A DNA stretch of 64,000 nt. It comes from Bacteroidota bacterium (lineage in GTDB: Bacteria; Bacteroidota; Ignavibacteria; OLB7). Shown piece by piece: positions 35,357-64,000 of the stretch. Numbering within the stretch: position 1 is the stretch's first letter; each line of letters starts with the position of its first letter. The notes below the pieces were generated by a model that was not told where the DNA came from, did not search any database, and worked only from the letters and a program-made list of their open reading frames with translations. The stretch spans positions 1 to 64,000 of the forward strand of contig JAFDZV010000031.1 in NCBI GenBank assembly GCA_018266795.1. The letters are read 5' to 3'. A program made the translations under genes and the position numbers.

Positions 35357-35916
35357 TAGGAGAAGATTTTTCTGATCGTGAGTAATGCCGAGCGTACCCT
35401 GGTCTTCACCGTACCCAACGGGATACCCAACTCCTTCGATGCCTCATCCTGAGTATAGCCACGGAAGTAGATCAGATCGATCACTTCCTGCTGCTCCGGC
35501 TTGAGCGCGAGAACGATCTCGCGCAGACCAATACGATCCGAGTCATCTCCTGCTGACGACTGACGATCAACAACATCTACGAGGCTCTCCAGCTCTTGGT
35601 TTTTCAACGTGTTACGATACCCCTTGGACTTGAAGATGTCCAGGGCAATGTTCCTTGCAACGCGAACGAGCCACGTGAAGAGCCGTCCCTTTTCAGGATC
35701 GTATGATTCAAAGTTCCCCCAGACCTTTACCAACGTCTCCTGAAGGGCGTCCTCGGCCAGGTCGTGCGAGCGGAGCAGTCGCTCCAGCACGCCGTATAAT
35801 GCTGGCGCGTAACGATCGTACAGTATCGCGACAGCGCTCCGGTCACGTGCGCGCAACAACGCAACCAGGGCCGATTCGTCGATTGCTCGATCGGTCGATC
35901 TGCTGTTTTCTGCCAT
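35356..35916 (-). CDS. ECF-type sigma factor, SigK-like (module 2)
   Basis: 186 residues, the standard size. Region 2 (AILYDRYAPALYGVLERLLRSHDLAEDALQETLVKVWGNFESYDPEKGRLFTWLVRVARNIALDIFKSKG) and region 4 (LKPEQQEVIDLIYFRGYTQDEASKELGIPLGTVKTRVRSALLTIRKIF) are complete. The W-x-x-F-x-x-Y-D pattern and the RskA-like partner gene put it with the SigK group. The start at 35916 gives the normal N terminus (SRSTDRAIDESALVALLRARD). It belongs to an operon with the anti-sigma gene. Confidence 0.94.
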   Translation of the reverse strand: MAENSRSTDRAIDESALVALLRARDRSAVAILYDRYAPALYGVLERLLRSHDLAEDALQETLVKVWGNFESYDPEKGRLFTWLVRVARNIALDIFKSKGYRNTLKNQELESLVDVVDRQSSAGDDSDRIGLREIVLALKPEQQEVIDLIYFRGYTQDEASKELGIPLGTVKTRVRSALLTIRKIFS

Positions 35917-55250: not shown

Positions 55251-55266
55251 TGTTTCACGTGGAACA
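55251..55266. promoter_or_regulatory. parS-like site 1 (ParB binding)
   Basis: TGTTTCACGTGGAACA, a 16-mer that matches the universal ParB-site consensus TGTTNCACGTGAAACA at all but one position. It lies in the 106-base gap between mnmG and the RmlD-like gene. Confidence 0.8.
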
Positions 55267-55297: not shown

Positions 55298-57130
55298 TCA
55301 GCGAATGTAGAGGGAGAGAACCGAGACATCGGAGCGGCTTACGCCTGCAATCCGCGACGCCTGGCCGAGCGATCGCGGGCGAACCTGCGAGAGCTTCTCC
55401 CGGGCTTCGGAGGAAAGGGACTGAATCCGTCCATAATCGATCGCCTCAGGAATCAGAACGTTCTCCGATGCCGTAAAACGCTCAACCTCCTCCAGTTGCC
55501 GCTTGATATACCCTTCGTACTTCGCCTGGATCTCCATCTGCTCCGCAACATCCCGGTTGGCCAGCAACCGTTGAAGCCGGTCATGTTCCGGAAGTAGAGG
55601 GAGCAGGTCCGCAAGCACCACCTCCGGGCGCTTCAGATACTGCCAGCCCTTCACGTAACGATCCTCCCCCGCCAAATCCGAACGGCCCTTCAGCGCGATC
55701 TTCTGCAGAAGATCGCGCGCCTCCTCGGTCCCCTCGCGCTTCGCGGCCATCCGCGCATACTGCTCGCCGTCTACCAGACCAAGACGATTCCCGATGTCTG
55801 TAAGCCGAAGATCGGCGTTGTCGCGGCGGAGAAGGAGGCGATACTCTGCGCGTGAGGTGAACATCCTGTACGGTTCAAGGATGGTCAGATTCACGAGATC
55901 ATCAATCAGCACCCCAATATATCCCTGCGAGCGATCGATAATCAACGGCTCCTCCCCACGCACGGAGAGGGCGGCATTGATGCCGGCCAGCAATCCCTGA
56001 GCTGCCGCCTCCTCGTATCCGGATGTTCCGTTCACCTGCCCGGCAAAGAACAGCCCTCGGACGCGCTTGCTCTCCAACCACAGATGAAGCTGATACGAGG
56101 GGAAATAGTCGTACTCCACCGCATATCCATACCGAAGGACTTCACACCGTTCGAGCGGCGGAATCGATCGCAGCCCGAGAAGCTGTACATCCCGCGGCAA
56201 CGATGTGGAGAAACCATTCACGTAGACCGAGTTCGTTTCCACTCCTTCCGGCTCCAGGAAGATCTGGTGGCTCTCCTTCTCGGAGAAGCGATGGATCTTA
56301 TCCTCGATCGACGGGCAGTAGCGCGGGCCGGTGCCGGTTATCTTACCGGTGAACATCGGCGACCGATCGAACCCGGTTCTCAGAATCTTGTGCGTTGCCT
56401 CGCTGGTCGAGGTGAGATAGCATGCGATTCTGTTTCGTACTGAGGACGTTGATTGTGAGAACGGAATAGGTTCGGGATCGCCGTGGTCGGTCTGGCAGAG
56501 TGAAAAGTCTACCGAAGCGGCATCCACCCTGGGGGGCGTTCCGGTCTTGAGCCTCCCGGTAACGAAACCAACCTCACGTAATGAACCGCTCAGATGCTCC
56601 ACAGAGAATTCGCCTACGCGCCCGCCGGCGGTCTGAATCTCCCCGGTATGCATCCGGCCGCAGAGAAACGTTCCGGAGCAGACAACGATGGTCCTGCAGG
56701 CGAACGCGAGGCCATCTGCCAGACGGACCCCGGCAACGGCTCCATTTTCCAGACGGACATCTTCCACCAGACCGGCGATAATGTCCAGCCCGGCGATCTC
56801 CCTCAATCGCTCCTGGGCATACCGCGGATAGAGATCCTTATCGTTCTGAGAACGCGGAGACCACATTGCAGGCCCCTTCGAACGGCCCAGCATCTTGAAC
56901 TGGATACCGGAGCGATCGGCAAGGCGACCCATCTCCCCACCCAGCGCATCGATCTCACAGACAAGCTGGCCCTTTGCCATGCCTCCTACAGCGGGATTGC
57001 ATGAAAGCCGGCCGATGGCGTTCACATCCGCAGTAACAAGCGCGGTCCGGCATCCCATCCGCGCAGCCGCCGATGAAGCCTCGATCCCGGCATGCCCGCC
57101 GCCGATTACTATGACGTCGTACTGCTTCAA
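55298..57130 (-). CDS. mnmG: tRNA uridine-5-carboxymethylaminomethyl modification enzyme MnmG (GidA)
   Basis: 610 residues, full length. The FAD-binding Rossmann motif is VIVIGGGHAGIEASSAAARMG, then NPAVGGMAKGQLVCEIDALGG, the conserved RYCPSIEDKIHRF and NGTSGYEEAAAQGL blocks, and the C-terminal helical MnmE/tRNA-binding part (LKYEGYI-like AKYEGYIKRQLEEVERF). MnmG works with MnmE to add the cmnm5 group to U34 of several tRNAs, using FAD and methylenetetrahydrofolate. mnmE lies directly upstream on the same strand (104-base gap, holding parS-like site 2). The mnmE-mnmG pair is a frequent neighbour of the chromosome origin. Confidence 0.97.
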   Translation of the reverse strand: MKQYDVIVIGGGHAGIEASSAAARMGCRTALVTADVNAIGRLSCNPAVGGMAKGQLVCEIDALGGEMGRLADRSGIQFKMLGRSKGPAMWSPRSQNDKDLYPRYAQERLREIAGLDIIAGLVEDVRLENGAVAGVRLADGLAFACRTIVVCSGTFLCGRMHTGEIQTAGGRVGEFSVEHLSGSLREVGFVTGRLKTGTPPRVDAASVDFSLCQTDHGDPEPIPFSQSTSSVRNRIACYLTSTSEATHKILRTGFDRSPMFTGKITGTGPRYCPSIEDKIHRFSEKESHQIFLEPEGVETNSVYVNGFSTSLPRDVQLLGLRSIPPLERCEVLRYGYAVEYDYFPSYQLHLWLESKRVRGLFFAGQVNGTSGYEEAAAQGLLAGINAALSVRGEEPLIIDRSQGYIGVLIDDLVNLTILEPYRMFTSRAEYRLLLRRDNADLRLTDIGNRLGLVDGEQYARMAAKREGTEEARDLLQKIALKGRSDLAGEDRYVKGWQYLKRPEVVLADLLPLLPEHDRLQRLLANRDVAEQMEIQAKYEGYIKRQLEEVERFTASENVLIPEAIDYGRIQSLSSEAREKLSQVRPRSLGQASRIAGVSRSDVSVLSLYIR

Positions 57131-57155
57131 TGTTCAGATACCATCCGTGCAAAAT

Positions 57156-57171
57156 GTTCCACGTGGAACAC
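57156..57171. promoter_or_regulatory. parS-like site 2 (ParB binding)
   Basis: TGTTCCACGTGGAACA, a perfect 16-bp palindrome and a match to the parS consensus except at one position. It lies in the 104-base gap between mnmE and mnmG, 26 bases upstream of the mnmG start codon. Confidence 0.85.
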
Positions 57172-57234: not shown

Positions 57235-58587
57235 TCACTTCCCGATGCAGAAGCTCGAGAAGAGCTTGTTCAGCACATCGTCGCCCACCGCGCTCCCTGT
57301 AAGTTCTGAGATGGGAGCAAGCAGGATGCGGAGATCGGCTGAAAGGAGTTCCGTATCGGATGTAGATCGATACTCGATTTCGGACAGATGCGAGCGCACG
57401 GCTCCAAGCAGGTGGTACTGCCGTTCGTTCACAAGCGCAACGATGTCCGAAAGGTTCCGGGTATAATCCTCTGCCAGTAGATCGAGCAATCCTGTGATTG
57501 TAGATCGATCGTGCACCGAGCAGGAGATCGCGCCCTCTACCGATCGATGCTGCTCATCGCATTTTGTTGCGACAGCAACAAATGACGTATGAGGGAATTC
57601 GTTTCGCATACGATCTACAAGAGCAAGCTCCTCGGCCGCGGATTCGGTACGAGAACTATCGATCAGGTAGAAGACATGATCAGCCGTGGCAACGAGATCG
57701 CTGGCACGCTCCACACCCTCAGCCTCGATCAGGTCTGTCGTGTGCCGCAGCCCGGCCGTGTCAACCAGACGAAACTGCACGCCGCCGTGCGCAACCCGCT
57801 CCTCGAGATAGTCGCGTGTGGTTCCCTCCACAGGACTGACAAGCGCGCGGCCGTAACCAACCAGAGCATTGAACAGGCTGGACTTGCCGGCGTTCGGACG
57901 GCCCAATAAAAGTATCCGCGGCCCGTGCCGCAGACGGTTGCCGGTGTTGTAGCTCGTGAGCAACCCATCGACAAAGACACGCAATTCATCCAGCAGGCCT
58001 GTGACTTCCTCGATCGAGGCAAATTGATAACGCTCCTCTACAAAGTCGAGTTCCAACTCGAGCAGCGCCAGAAGATGGAGCACGCGCTCGCGGAACTCAT
58101 CCAGGCGCCGCCGAAGCTCACCGTGAAGCTGGCGTTGCGCAACGTACAGTGCCTGCTCGGACTCCGAGGCAAGCACGTCCGCGAGGGCTTCCACCTGCGT
58201 GAGATCGATCTTCCCGTTCAGGAATGCGCGGCGTGTAAACTCACCCTGCGTCGCCACACGTGCACCGTGCAAAACGCAGAGCCGGACAACACGATCGGTA
58301 ATCAGCATGGTGCCGTGCAGATGGAACTCCACAACATCTTCACCGGTGAACGAGTGCGGCGCACGAAACCAGACGGCAAGGCATTGATCGATGATCTCTC
58401 CATCGTTCCCCACGAGACCGTTGGCGATGAACCGGACAGGTACGTCACTGAACGATGCATAACCGGCAGGGCGAAACAGACGGGTGGCGACGGCGAGCGC
58501 GGCGGGACCGCTCAAGCGGACAACCGCGATGCCCGCCGTCCCAAGCGGTGTGGCACGCGCTACAATCGTATCATCGGAATACATCAT
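57235..58587 (-). CDS. mnmE: tRNA modification GTPase MnmE (TrmE)
   Basis: 450 residues. The N-terminal formyl-THF-binding domain (MMYSDDTIVARATPLGTAGIAVVRLSG ... GEFTRRAFLNGKIDLTQVEALADVL) leads into the helical domain. The inserted G domain has G1 GRPNAGKSS, G2 TTRDYLEE, G3 DTAGLR and G4 TKCD (a variant of NKxD). The C terminus ends in FCIGK, the conserved CxGK motif. It is the partner of MnmG. The first two codons are both ATG. The exported-protein gene cluster on its other side is divergent. Confidence 0.97.
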   Translation of the reverse strand: MMYSDDTIVARATPLGTAGIAVVRLSGPAALAVATRLFRPAGYASFSDVPVRFIANGLVGNDGEIIDQCLAVWFRAPHSFTGEDVVEFHLHGTMLITDRVVRLCVLHGARVATQGEFTRRAFLNGKIDLTQVEALADVLASESEQALYVAQRQLHGELRRRLDEFRERVLHLLALLELELDFVEERYQFASIEEVTGLLDELRVFVDGLLTSYNTGNRLRHGPRILLLGRPNAGKSSLFNALVGYGRALVSPVEGTTRDYLEERVAHGGVQFRLVDTAGLRHTTDLIEAEGVERASDLVATADHVFYLIDSSRTESAAEELALVDRMRNEFPHTSFVAVATKCDEQHRSVEGAISCSVHDRSTITGLLDLLAEDYTRNLSDIVALVNERQYHLLGAVRSHLSEIEYRSTSDTELLSADLRILLAPISELTGSAVGDDVLNKLFSSFCIGK

Positions 58588-60431: not shown

Positions 60432-62327
60432 TTACTTCTCGTCGTCAACGATCGTATAGTCGGCATCCTCCACGTTCGATCCGGCGTTGGCACCGTCGGA
60501 CGATGCGGCTTGATCGGGCGAGCCGCCTGCCTGCTGGTACATCTGGCTGGAGACATCGCTCCACGCACGATCCAGCTCGTCCTTTGCGCCACGAATCTCT
60601 TCCATGGAAGCTCCCTTCAACGCGGTCTCCAGCTTCTCGGTAGCGGCCTCGATCTTAGCCTTCCCCTCTGCCGGGATCTTGTCGCCGAGATCGGTAAGCT
60701 GCTTCTTCGAGGAGAACACCGTCTGGTCCGCCTGATTCCGGAGTTCCACATCCTCCTTGCGCTTCTTGTCGGACGTTGCATTATCCTGCGCCTCGCGCTT
60801 CATCCGATCGATCTCCGTCTGCGACAGACCGCTGGAGGAAGTGATCTTGATGGACTGCTCCTTCCCTGTAGCCTTATCCTTCGCCGAGACATTGAGGATG
60901 CCATTCGCGTCGATATCGAACGTCACCTCGATCTGCGGAACGCCGCGCGGCGCCGGCGGGATGTCACCAAGATGGAACCGGCCCAGCGTCTTGTTGTCGT
61001 CCGCCATCGGGCGCTCCCCCTGCAGAATGCGAATCTCCACGGAGGGCTGATTGTCTGCCGCTGTTGAATACACCTCCACCTTCTTCGTGGGAATGGTGGT
61101 GTTGGACGGAATCATCGGTGTCATGACACCACCAAGAGTCTCGATACCAAGCGTCAGCGGAGTTACGTCCAGCAGCAGCACATCCTGAACGTCACCGGAA
61201 AGCACTGCTCCCTGAATGGCTGCGCCAATGGCAACAACCTCGTCCGGATTGACCCCCTTGTTCGGCTCCTTGCCGAAGAACTCGCGAACCAATTGCTGGA
61301 TCTTCGGAATACGGGTGGAACCACCAACCAGAATCACCTCATCGATCTGGCTCGGGTTCAGCCCGGCATCCTTCAATGCCTGATGGCAGGGATCCAGCGT
61401 GCGGCGGAACAGATCCTCGCAAAGCTGCTCGAACTTGGCACGCGTCACCGCGATGTTCAGGTGCTTCGGGCCGTCCTGCGTCGCTGTGATGAACGGAAGG
61501 TTCACATCAGTCTGCATCATCTGCGACAGCTCCATCTTCGCCTTCTCAGCGGCCTCCTTCAGGCGCTGCAGAGCCATCGGATCATTGCGAAGATCGATGC
61601 CGTCGCTCTTCTTGAACTCGTCGGCCAGGTAGTCCACCAGTCGCTGATCGAAGTTGTCGCCGCCGAGATGCGTATCGCCGTTGGTGGACTTTACCTCGAA
61701 CACTCCGTCGCCGAGTTCCAGAATCGAGATGTCGAACGTACCGCCACCAAGATCGTAGACAGCGATCTTCTCGTGCTTTCCCTCCTTGTCCAGACCGTAT
61801 GCAAGTGCTGCGGCCGTTGGTTCGTTGATGATGCGCTTCACCGAAAGGCCGGCGATTTCACCGGCGTCCTTCGTTGCCTGACGCTGGGAATCGTTGAAGT
61901 ATGCCGGAACGGTGATTACCGCCTCGGTTACCTTCTGCCCGAGATAGTCCTCTGCGGTCTGCTTCATCTTCTGCAGAATCATTGCCGAGATCTCGGGGGG
62001 CGAATACATACGATCGTCGATGCGAACACGCACCGAGTTGTTCTCGCCCGCTACAACTTCATACGGCACCATCTTCTCCTCCTCGCGCACTTCGGGTTCG
62101 GTACGTCCCATGAAGCGCTTGATCGAGAAGATCGTGTTGGTTGGGTTGGTCACGGCCTGGCGCTTTGCCGCCTGACCTACGAGGCGATCGCCCGACTTCG
62201 TGAATCCAACAACGGAGGGTGTTGTCCGTGCTCCCTCGCTGTTCGGGATAACGGTTGGTGTGGTTCCCTCCATAACGGCCACAACGGAGTTCGTTGTGCC
62301 GAGATCGATACCAATAATCTTGCCCAT
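60432..62327 (-). CDS. dnaK: Chaperone protein DnaK (Hsp70)
   Basis: 631 residues. The ATPase signatures are complete: [17 protein letters not shown] (phosphate 1), [16 protein letters not shown] (phosphate 2) and [18 protein letters not shown]. The substrate-binding domain follows the linker [16 protein letters not shown], and the tail ends in an acidic [12 protein letters not shown], like the EEVKDK type. DnaK works with DnaJ and GrpE, which are absent here. AGGAG lies 10 bases before the ATG. hsp20 is immediately upstream on the same strand, a heat-shock pair. I saw no CIRCE (TTAGCACTC-N9-GAGTGCTAA) in front of either gene. Confidence 0.98.
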
Positions 62328-62429: not shown

Positions 62430-62864
62430 CTAGTTGATCGGAATCGACGTGCCGGAGCTCTTCGTGCTCTGCGGAAGGGTTATCGTCAGCACACCGTTCT
62501 CGTAGGTTGCCACTGAATTTGTCGCGTCCACTACTGCATCGGCAGGAAGCGTAATGCGGCGTGTGAATTGTCCGTACGTTCTGTTTCCCGTCACGGAACT
62601 AGCCCCATCCGGGCGCAACAGACGCTTCTCACCGGAGACCTCAACACTATTTCCCGACATGGTGATCCGGATCTCCTCCTTCTTCATCCCTGGAAGCTCA
62701 ACCTCGATGTAGTAGGTTCCGTTCACGTGGTAGGCCTCGGCAACCGGCATGAATCCACGCGATTGCCCCGCTCCAGGACTCCGATCGAAGTTCTCGAAGT
62801 AGTTCTTCAGACGGCTCGAAAAGTCCTGTACTTCCTTCATCCAGTCAAAATCGTTGCGCATCAT
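62430..62864 (-). CDS. Small heat-shock protein (Hsp20/alpha-crystallin)
   Basis: 144 residues. The alpha-crystallin domain (~43-130) has FMPVAEAYHVNGTYYIEVELPGMKKEEIRITMSGNSVEVSGEKR and the conserved GVLTITLP near the end. The C-terminal IPIN holds the I-x-I motif used for oligomer contacts. Small heat-shock proteins hold unfolding proteins until DnaK refolds them, which suits the dnaK gene 102 bases downstream. Two ATG codons start the frame. AAGGA lies 7-10 bases before them. TTGTGG and TTATAG upstream are possible promoter elements, poorly spaced. Confidence 0.95.
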   Translation of the reverse strand: MMRNDFDWMKEVQDFSSRLKNYFENFDRSPGAGQSRGFMPVAEAYHVNGTYYIEVELPGMKKEEIRITMSGNSVEVSGEKRLLRPDGASSVTGNRTYGQFTRRITLPADAVVDATNSVATYENGVLTITLPQSTKSSGTSIPIN

Positions 62865-63114
62865 GACGGGTTCCTTTACTGTGTCACGGTCTATAATGGA
62901 TTGTGATCACGGGTACCACAAGGGGCGTGCCAAGGTCAGGAATCCACAAAAACGGGCAGGATCGAAGGAAAAGCGAAGTGCGGTGGACGACGATCTGACA
63001 AAGTGGCGTATTGCGGGTGCCGAATAAGACTGAGCAGTTGTCACAGGTAAGAATGACAGCGACAACCTTTCAAATCCCCTTCTCTCTGAACCTTAGATAA
63101 AGAAGTAATGGTTT

Positions 63115-63123
63115 TGTGTATAA
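63115..63123 (-). promoter_or_regulatory. DnaA box 1
   Basis: TGTGTATAA, the reverse complement of TTATACACA; fits TTATNCACA exactly. Confidence 0.6.
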
Positions 63124-63134
63124 CCATGTGTCTT

Positions 63135-63143
63135 TGTGGATAA
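63135..63143 (-). promoter_or_regulatory. DnaA box 2
   Basis: TGTGGATAA, the reverse complement of the canonical TTATCCACA. Spaced 20 bases from box 1, in the same orientation. Confidence 0.65.
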
Positions 63144-63222
63144 CGTGTCGTGCACAGTTCGCAAATCGCTGGATTACAAGCCGGAATGAAGAATTTTTAC
63201 GGGATCCTGAATGTTGATGAGT

Positions 63223-63231
63223 TGTGGATAA
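63223..63231 (-). promoter_or_regulatory. DnaA box 3
   Basis: TGTGGATAA again, same orientation as boxes 1 and 2. It is followed 8 bases later by a degenerate box on the other strand (63240-63248). Confidence 0.65.
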
Positions 63232-63451
63232 CTCGTGTTCTATCCACGTCTCTGGGGGTAACTCCTCGCCGTCCCATCCGTTGGCCCCTTTTTACACGGA
63301 CGATCCACGCGATATCCCACGGATTGTGCCGATATGTGGAGAGCCATGTGGATATCAGACGGAGTGGTTATCCTTCAGGTTTTGATGAAAACGAAGCGGG
63401 GCGAACAGCTGTGCCCGCCCCGCCTGGTCAGATTTCGATGACCCCGACCGG

Positions 63452-64000
63452 CTACCAGTTCCGGAGAAGGTCGATCAGGAGTCGTACGCCCGCACCAGTC
63501 CCTCCCTTTGTCACATACCAGCTCCCCTTCGGGACCATGCCGGAGCCCGCGATGTCCAGGTGGGCCCAGGGATATCCATCAACGAAATGCTGGAGGAAGA
63601 GGGCGGCCGTAATTGTGCCGGCGGCACGGCCGCCGGAGTTCTTGACATCGGCAATATCGCTCTTGATCAGCTCCTCGTACTCCTCCCACAGCGGAAGTTC
63701 AACAACACGGTCATAGCTTCTATTCCCTGCCTCGACAATCTTGCCGTTGAGCTCCGGATTGTTCCCCATGAGGCCGGAGGCAACGTTGCCAAGTGCGATA
63801 ACGCATGCGCCGGTAAGTGTTGCAAGGTCGATCACGGCCTGCGGCTTGTACCGCGAGGCGTAGCAGAGCGCATCAGCAAGAATCAGCCGGCCTTCGGCGT
63901 CGGTATTGTCGATCTCCGCCGTCTTGCCGTTCATGAAGGTGATGACATCGCCAGGCTTGTACGCGCTGCCGGAGGGCATGTTCTCCGTTGTCGGTACCAG
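63452..64000 (-). CDS. pepA: Leucyl aminopeptidase PepA (M17), C-terminal part (5' end outside window)
   Basis: 183 codons of the C-terminal domain; the frame is open to the right edge. The family signature NTDAEGRL (in EIDNTDAEGRLILADAL) includes metal-binding Asp and Glu and the catalytic Arg. ENMPSGSAYKPGDVIT, ATLTGACVIALG, the GLMGNN loop and the HLDIAGSG..PKG...TGAGVRLLIDLL ending are all M17 blocks. The enzyme is a two-metal, usually hexameric aminopeptidase; in E. coli PepA is also a DNA-binding protein in Xer recombination. The upstream part and start codon lie beyond base 64000. Confidence 0.95.
   Translation of the reverse strand: MVPTTENMPSGSAYKPGDVITFMNGKTAEIDNTDAEGRLILADALCYASRYKPQAVIDLATLTGACVIALGNVASGLMGNNPELNGKIVEAGNRSYDRVVELPLWEEYEELIKSDIADVKNSGGRAAGTITAALFLQHFVDGYPWAHLDIAGSGMVPKGSWYVTKGGTGAGVRLLIDLLRNW

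Follow-up and report, generated by a model that had tools for sequence, protein, structure and literature searches.

A probable chromosomal replication origin between pepA and hsp20, away from dnaA, in a Bacteroidota genome

Gene content and DnaA boxes of the pepA-hsp20 gap

The DNA analyzed here (the window) makes up the first 64 kb of C24, a contig of 99,738 bp. It belongs to the draft genome of an uncultured bacterium (G000; 5.97 Mb, 71 unordered contigs), and the closest named relatives of this genome are metagenome genomes of the Chlorobiota/Kapaibacterium type. Between the stop of pepA and the start of hsp20, both on the minus strand, lies a gap of 587 bases for which an earlier note on this DNA had suggested a candidate oriC. 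The gap is indeed free of genes, as no ORF in it is supported: the sole notable one (63150-63716, plus strand) runs antisense into pepA. A search of the gap for RNA elements gave no Rfam match. The features of the locus are listed below.

55251..55266, no strand: parS site TGTTTCACGTGGAACA, one of the genome's two
55298..57130, minus strand: mnmG (PF01134)
57155..57170, no strand: parS site TGTTCCACGTGGAACA, one of the genome's two
57235..58587, minus strand: mnmE (PF10396, PF12631)
60432..62327, minus strand: dnaK, next after hsp20 on the unwinding side (PF00012, 1.2e-271)
62430..62864, minus strand: hsp20, flanking gene (PF00011, 2.4e-17)
62865..63451, no strand: proposed oriC, pepA stop to hsp20 start; the genome's only DnaA-box cluster, kept in the family
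63084..63123, no strand: candidate DNA unwinding element; rank 1 for instability among the 40-mers of the contig (nearest-neighbour profile, 99,738 bp)
63100..63108, minus strand: DnaA-trio-like run TTA-CTT-CTT, 6 nt after TTATACACA; small motif of putative function
63115..63123, minus strand: DnaA box TTATACACA, exact, nearest the unstable tract
63135..63143, minus strand: DnaA box TTATCCACA, exact; GTTATCCAC/GTTGTCCAC in three aligned relatives
63223..63231, minus strand: DnaA box TTATCCACA, exact, best conserved; aligned with GTTATCCACA in G001 and G003 and GTTTTCCACA in G004
63335..63343, minus strand: degenerate box CTCTCCACA, two mismatches
63347..63355, minus strand: weak DnaA box ATATCCACA, one mismatch
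63394..63425, minus strand: terminator-like hairpin after pepA (consensus match only)
63452..64000, continuing to contig position 64927, minus strand: pepA (M17 leucyl aminopeptidase), 3' part in the window (PF00883)

Read from pepA to hsp20, the gap presents the hairpin, the degenerate boxes at 63347 and 63335, the exact boxes at 63223, 63135 and 63115 and then the unstable stretch, with hsp20 about 235 bp beyond it. The three exact TTATNCACA sites described in the earlier note were recovered; they share the minus strand, span 117 bp in total and have no further exact counterpart in the window, where shuffled sequences predict 0.56. The note's further degenerate boxes are also present, one with a single mismatch (63347) and several with two. 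Throughout the genome, 36 exact TTATNCACA sites were counted, against 35 for a reversed control pattern. Three of these 36 form the cluster in the gap, and elsewhere no two lie close together. Because this is the sole cluster and only about 1e-5 such triples would be expected from 36 random sites in 5.97 Mb (our own arithmetic), it is not attributable to chance. One DnaA over the cut-off is encoded in the genome, with the box-reading signature GGRDHTTVMHA. Unlike in this genome, TTATNCACA is about twice as frequent as its reversed control in two relatives of the same family, G003 and G004 (68 vs 30 and 66 vs 31, respectively).

An AT-rich tract had been noticed beside the boxes, and a nearest-neighbour calculation identified it as the least stable 40-mer of the whole contig, directly abutting the exact boxes. 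On the reverse complement, the stretch reads TTATACACA-AAACCA-TTA-CTT-CTT-TATCTA. The published hallmark of the basal unwinding system (BUS) is a DnaA box with three or more A-centred triplets (T-centred on the opposite strand) no further than 16 nt away (PMC8287927), and the box at 63115 fits this description, with the trio-like run 6 nt after it. When a strict pattern was used (a box, up to 16 nt and three [CT]T[AT] triplets), TTATACACA-6 nt-TTACTTCTT was the single match in approximately 1.07 Mb of this genome scanned; the same pattern gave no match in G001, G003 or G004.

Conservation in the family and the neighbourhood of parS

The gene order guaA-pepA-gap-hsp20-dnaK-mnmE-mnmG is retained in a genome of the same genus (G001, locus L025) and in the two family members G003 and G004 (loci L026 and L029). 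In all five family genomes examined, this one included, the region upstream of hsp20-dnaK contains boxes and, towards hsp20, a melting-prone tract; the comparison of related genomes that the earlier note had called for thus revealed conservation of both elements. In the gap alignment, which is poor towards both ends of the gap, the 63223 box corresponds to GTTATCCACA in three genomes (G000, G001 and G003), and GTT(A/G)TCCAC stands at the 63135 box in all four, G004 included. Most boxes of the relatives contain mismatches, which counts against an origin. Each relative has an unstable tract just past its final boxes, towards hsp20; this tract is the least stable 40-mer of the gap's contig in G001 (201 kb) and G004 (177 kb) and ranks first or second in 101 kb in G003, depending on window size. 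In the most distant family member, G002, pepA is on another contig and a different gene borders the gap; nevertheless, TTTTCCACA, TTATCCACA and TTTTCCACA together with an AT-rich CTCTATTATCTATACATTC tract still precede hsp20-dnaK. The conserved unit is the gap together with hsp20-dnaK.

Two other groups of boxes were observed in these relatives. In genus g3, a second compact and conserved group (TAATCCACA, TTATCCACA, TTTTCCACA) lies about 6 kb from the gap (G003:C34:23687-23734; G004:C93, reversed contig, 125444-125491) and is perhaps a titration site. In G001, a tandem array of ~113-bp units, each with TCATGCACA (C19, reversed, 35394-35848), is a false box cluster.

A search for parS (TGTTNCACGTGNAACA, up to one mismatch) detected only two sites in the genome. 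They flank mnmG at 5.7-8 kb from the gap, while mnmE-mnmG themselves lie 4-8 kb from it, in accordance with the distance of less than 8 kb given in the earlier note. Sites of this kind occur most often near the origin (PMC7333895). All parS sites of G000 (2/2), G001 (3/3) and G003 (1/1) are on the contig of the gap and within about 21 kb of it, and parS is also found beside mnmG in G002 and in genomes of families f14 and f15. Counting against an origin, no parS match was present near the gap in G004, where the true site may have diverged; the only parS-like match of that genome (one mismatch, TGTTCCACCTGCAACA) is at G004:C35:59089-59104, away from the origin candidate. ParB of the present genome is encoded on C1, and no clustered boxes were seen at parB.

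The remark that the genes around the gap (dnaK, hsp20 and pepA) are not dnaA and dnaN also holds: dnaA is on C28 and dnaN on C36, and the gap is therefore not a dnaA-adjacent origin. No exact box was found upstream of dnaA, where at most one box with one mismatch occurs, and there was no box cluster at dnaN or upstream of dnaA in the other family genomes. A better box cluster beside dnaA, named beforehand as something that would speak against the gap, was looked for and is absent.

Interpretation as an origin and alternative readings

On the basis of these results, the pepA-hsp20 gap is most probably the chromosomal oriC, of the ordinary DnaA-dependent type in an unusual gene context away from dnaA (we put the probability at roughly 0.88), as the earlier note had proposed. 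It combines a box cluster above chance, an adjacent predicted unwinding element, a cognate DnaA and conservation in relatives with the proximity of both parS sites that marks an origin region; the conserved boxes and tract and the nearness of parS give this reading independent support. By analogy with known bacterial origins, DnaA would bind the boxes at 63223, 63135 and 63115, which form a directional row. Starting at the box next to the AT-rich tract, a DnaA filament would spread along a single strand of the adjoining trio-like, unstable sequence (63084-63108), open the tract and allow helicase loading and initiation. One fork would then move leftward through dnaK-mnmEG-parS and the other rightward through pepA-guaA-pnp, and the nearby parS sites would be copied early and segregated by ParB. 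The mechanism itself would be ordinary. If the origin is the gap, guaA, pnp, infB and nusA (C24:65126-76498, beyond the window) are head-on to the rightward fork, which is unusual for highly expressed genes and speaks against this reading.

The E. coli oriC likewise is not beside dnaA, lies in the neighbourhood of mnmG and has boxes adjoining an unstable element, features that the gap shares. E. coli is not known to have parS sites, whereas the present genome has them. The E. coli origin is located between gidA (mnmG) and mioC (PMC10225481), whereas here mnmG is 6 kb off and the flanks are hsp20-dnaK and pepA. The gap also resembles the BUS of the Bacillus subtilis oriC in its directional boxes, short spacer and T-centred triplets with the unstable tract on the same side (PMC8287927, PMC6669920), and differs from it in that it is not beside dnaA, its boxes are spread out rather than abutting, and only three triplets are clean. 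No papers on oriC in Kapabacteria were found in the literature searched.

Among the alternatives, the one that survives best, although improbable, is that the boxes are a DnaA-dependent regulatory site for hsp20-dnaK and that replication starts elsewhere. DnaA regulates genes in other bacteria, the cluster remains with hsp20-dnaK in G002 even though pepA is missing there, and a cluster upstream of ftsQAZ-like genes in family f14, away from parS in G037, indicates that promoter boxes may occur in this lineage. However, the exact boxes lie about 250-370 bp upstream of hsp20, apart from the only promoter-like site adjoining that gene, which is weak. Such a role would also leave unexplained both the least stable segment of the contig and the proximity of parS, in a genome without any competing box cluster.

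A second alternative, which we regard as very improbable, places the origin elsewhere nearby, for example around 77-79 kb on the contig, ahead of the nusA genes. GC skew was assessed per contig (C24, with other contigs as controls), the genome being a 71-contig draft, and is weak genome-wide. On C24 the raw cumulative curve reaches its minimum at 79,275, which is 16 kb away from the gap, and in G001 the corresponding distance is 17 kb; both values favour such a site, as does the change of gene strand at 77.2-77.4 kb. On the other hand, no box cluster is present at 77-79 kb, and the raw minima of G003 and G004 are only 2.5-4.7 kb from the gap. Raw skew is confounded by transcription, because the genes of C24 from 60 to 77 kb are on the minus strand; the raw minimum was therefore rejected as an origin locator and strand-corrected 4-fold degenerate sites were used instead. 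In minus-strand genes, the skew at these sites turns at the gap and not at 77 kb, being +0.07 to its left and -0.08 in the 13.5 kb to its right, and a two-parameter strand-corrected fit put the best switch of C24 at the gap. Thus, of the skew test suggested in the earlier note, in which a minimum far from the gap was to weigh against it, the raw form went against the gap and the strand-corrected form in its favour, on C24 only. Minus-strand genes of G001 show the same change (+0.14 to -0.02) with a best corrected fit 17 kb from the gap, and the corrected switch was not significant in G003 and G004. Control contigs C3 and C28 have switches of similar size; since these are not unique to C24, we consider skew supportive of an origin in the gap rather than decisive.

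Finally, that replication starts at dnaA (on C28), the arrangement of most families in this class, with the gap cluster as an auxiliary site of DnaA titration or reactivation, has almost no likelihood: box clusters do lie upstream of dnaA in most other families and dnaA here still adjoins yidC/yidD-like genes (gene order by eye), but neither this genome nor other family members have a cluster there, and dnaA shows no skew switch, the best one of C28 being 58 kb away.

Placement of origins in the class

Box clusters were compared on a tree of DnaA from 33 class members, the root of which is not fixed. Outside one fully supported group, 21 of 22 genomes have a box cluster upstream of dnaA, whereas none of the 11 genomes inside it (families f1, f6, f14 and f15) has one. 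Loss of the cluster from dnaA in this clade appears to be the simpler direction of change, though not proven with the root unfixed. The gap has the same box consensus, mostly in one orientation, as the dnaA-adjacent origins of the class (for example, G047, G038 and G043), in which the cluster is instead directly upstream of dnaA.

In the sister family f14, the gap preceding serS lies 2-5 kb from mnmG-parS, with a peptidase-like gene and serS as its flanks (named by eye). It contains tandem boxes, DnaA-trio-like runs and an AT-rich tract.

L286:6561-7018 (G055): f14 serS-gap candidate oriC
L279:13351-13790 (G037): the same
L285:2730-3198 (G019): the same

In G055 the series is CTATCCACA-GTTTCCACA-GCA-CTA-TTG-TTA-CTA-TTG-CTT, with related sequences in G019 and G037, and the gap looks like a textbook unwinding system and a candidate oriC. 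It shares with the pepA-hsp20 gap the mnmG-parS neighbourhood away from dnaA, the boxes, the trios and the AT-rich tract, but it is a different gap with different flanking genes. In the complete genome G037, coarse and noisy sampling showed the skew changing sign within the interval 1.42-1.54 Mb, which the parS site at 1.477 Mb fits.

These comparisons suggest that the origins of the clade stay with mnmG-parS and not with dnaA. A further proposal, which we regard as evenly balanced, is that in clade f1/f6/f14/f15 the origin moved away from dnaA a single time and later came to occupy different gaps of the mnmEG-parS region (hsp20 in f1, serS in f14), with the parS region as the fixed neighbour of oriC; if true, origin hopping within a segregation domain would become directly testable. 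For origin finders, the present candidate would supply a lineage-specific rule (upstream of hsp20-dnaK and near mnmG-parS, not at dnaA), and a clade in which the origin is off dnaA while parS-mnmG is still beside it would help in studying what keeps oriC where it is.

Family f14 also has a cluster of exact DnaA boxes immediately upstream of genes resembling ftsQ-ftsA-ftsZ (L205:10204-10976 in G055; L206:10143-10346 in G037). It was set aside as the f14 origin, being far from parS in G037 while a better gap is available beside mnmG-parS, and possibly reflects DnaA control of division genes in this family.
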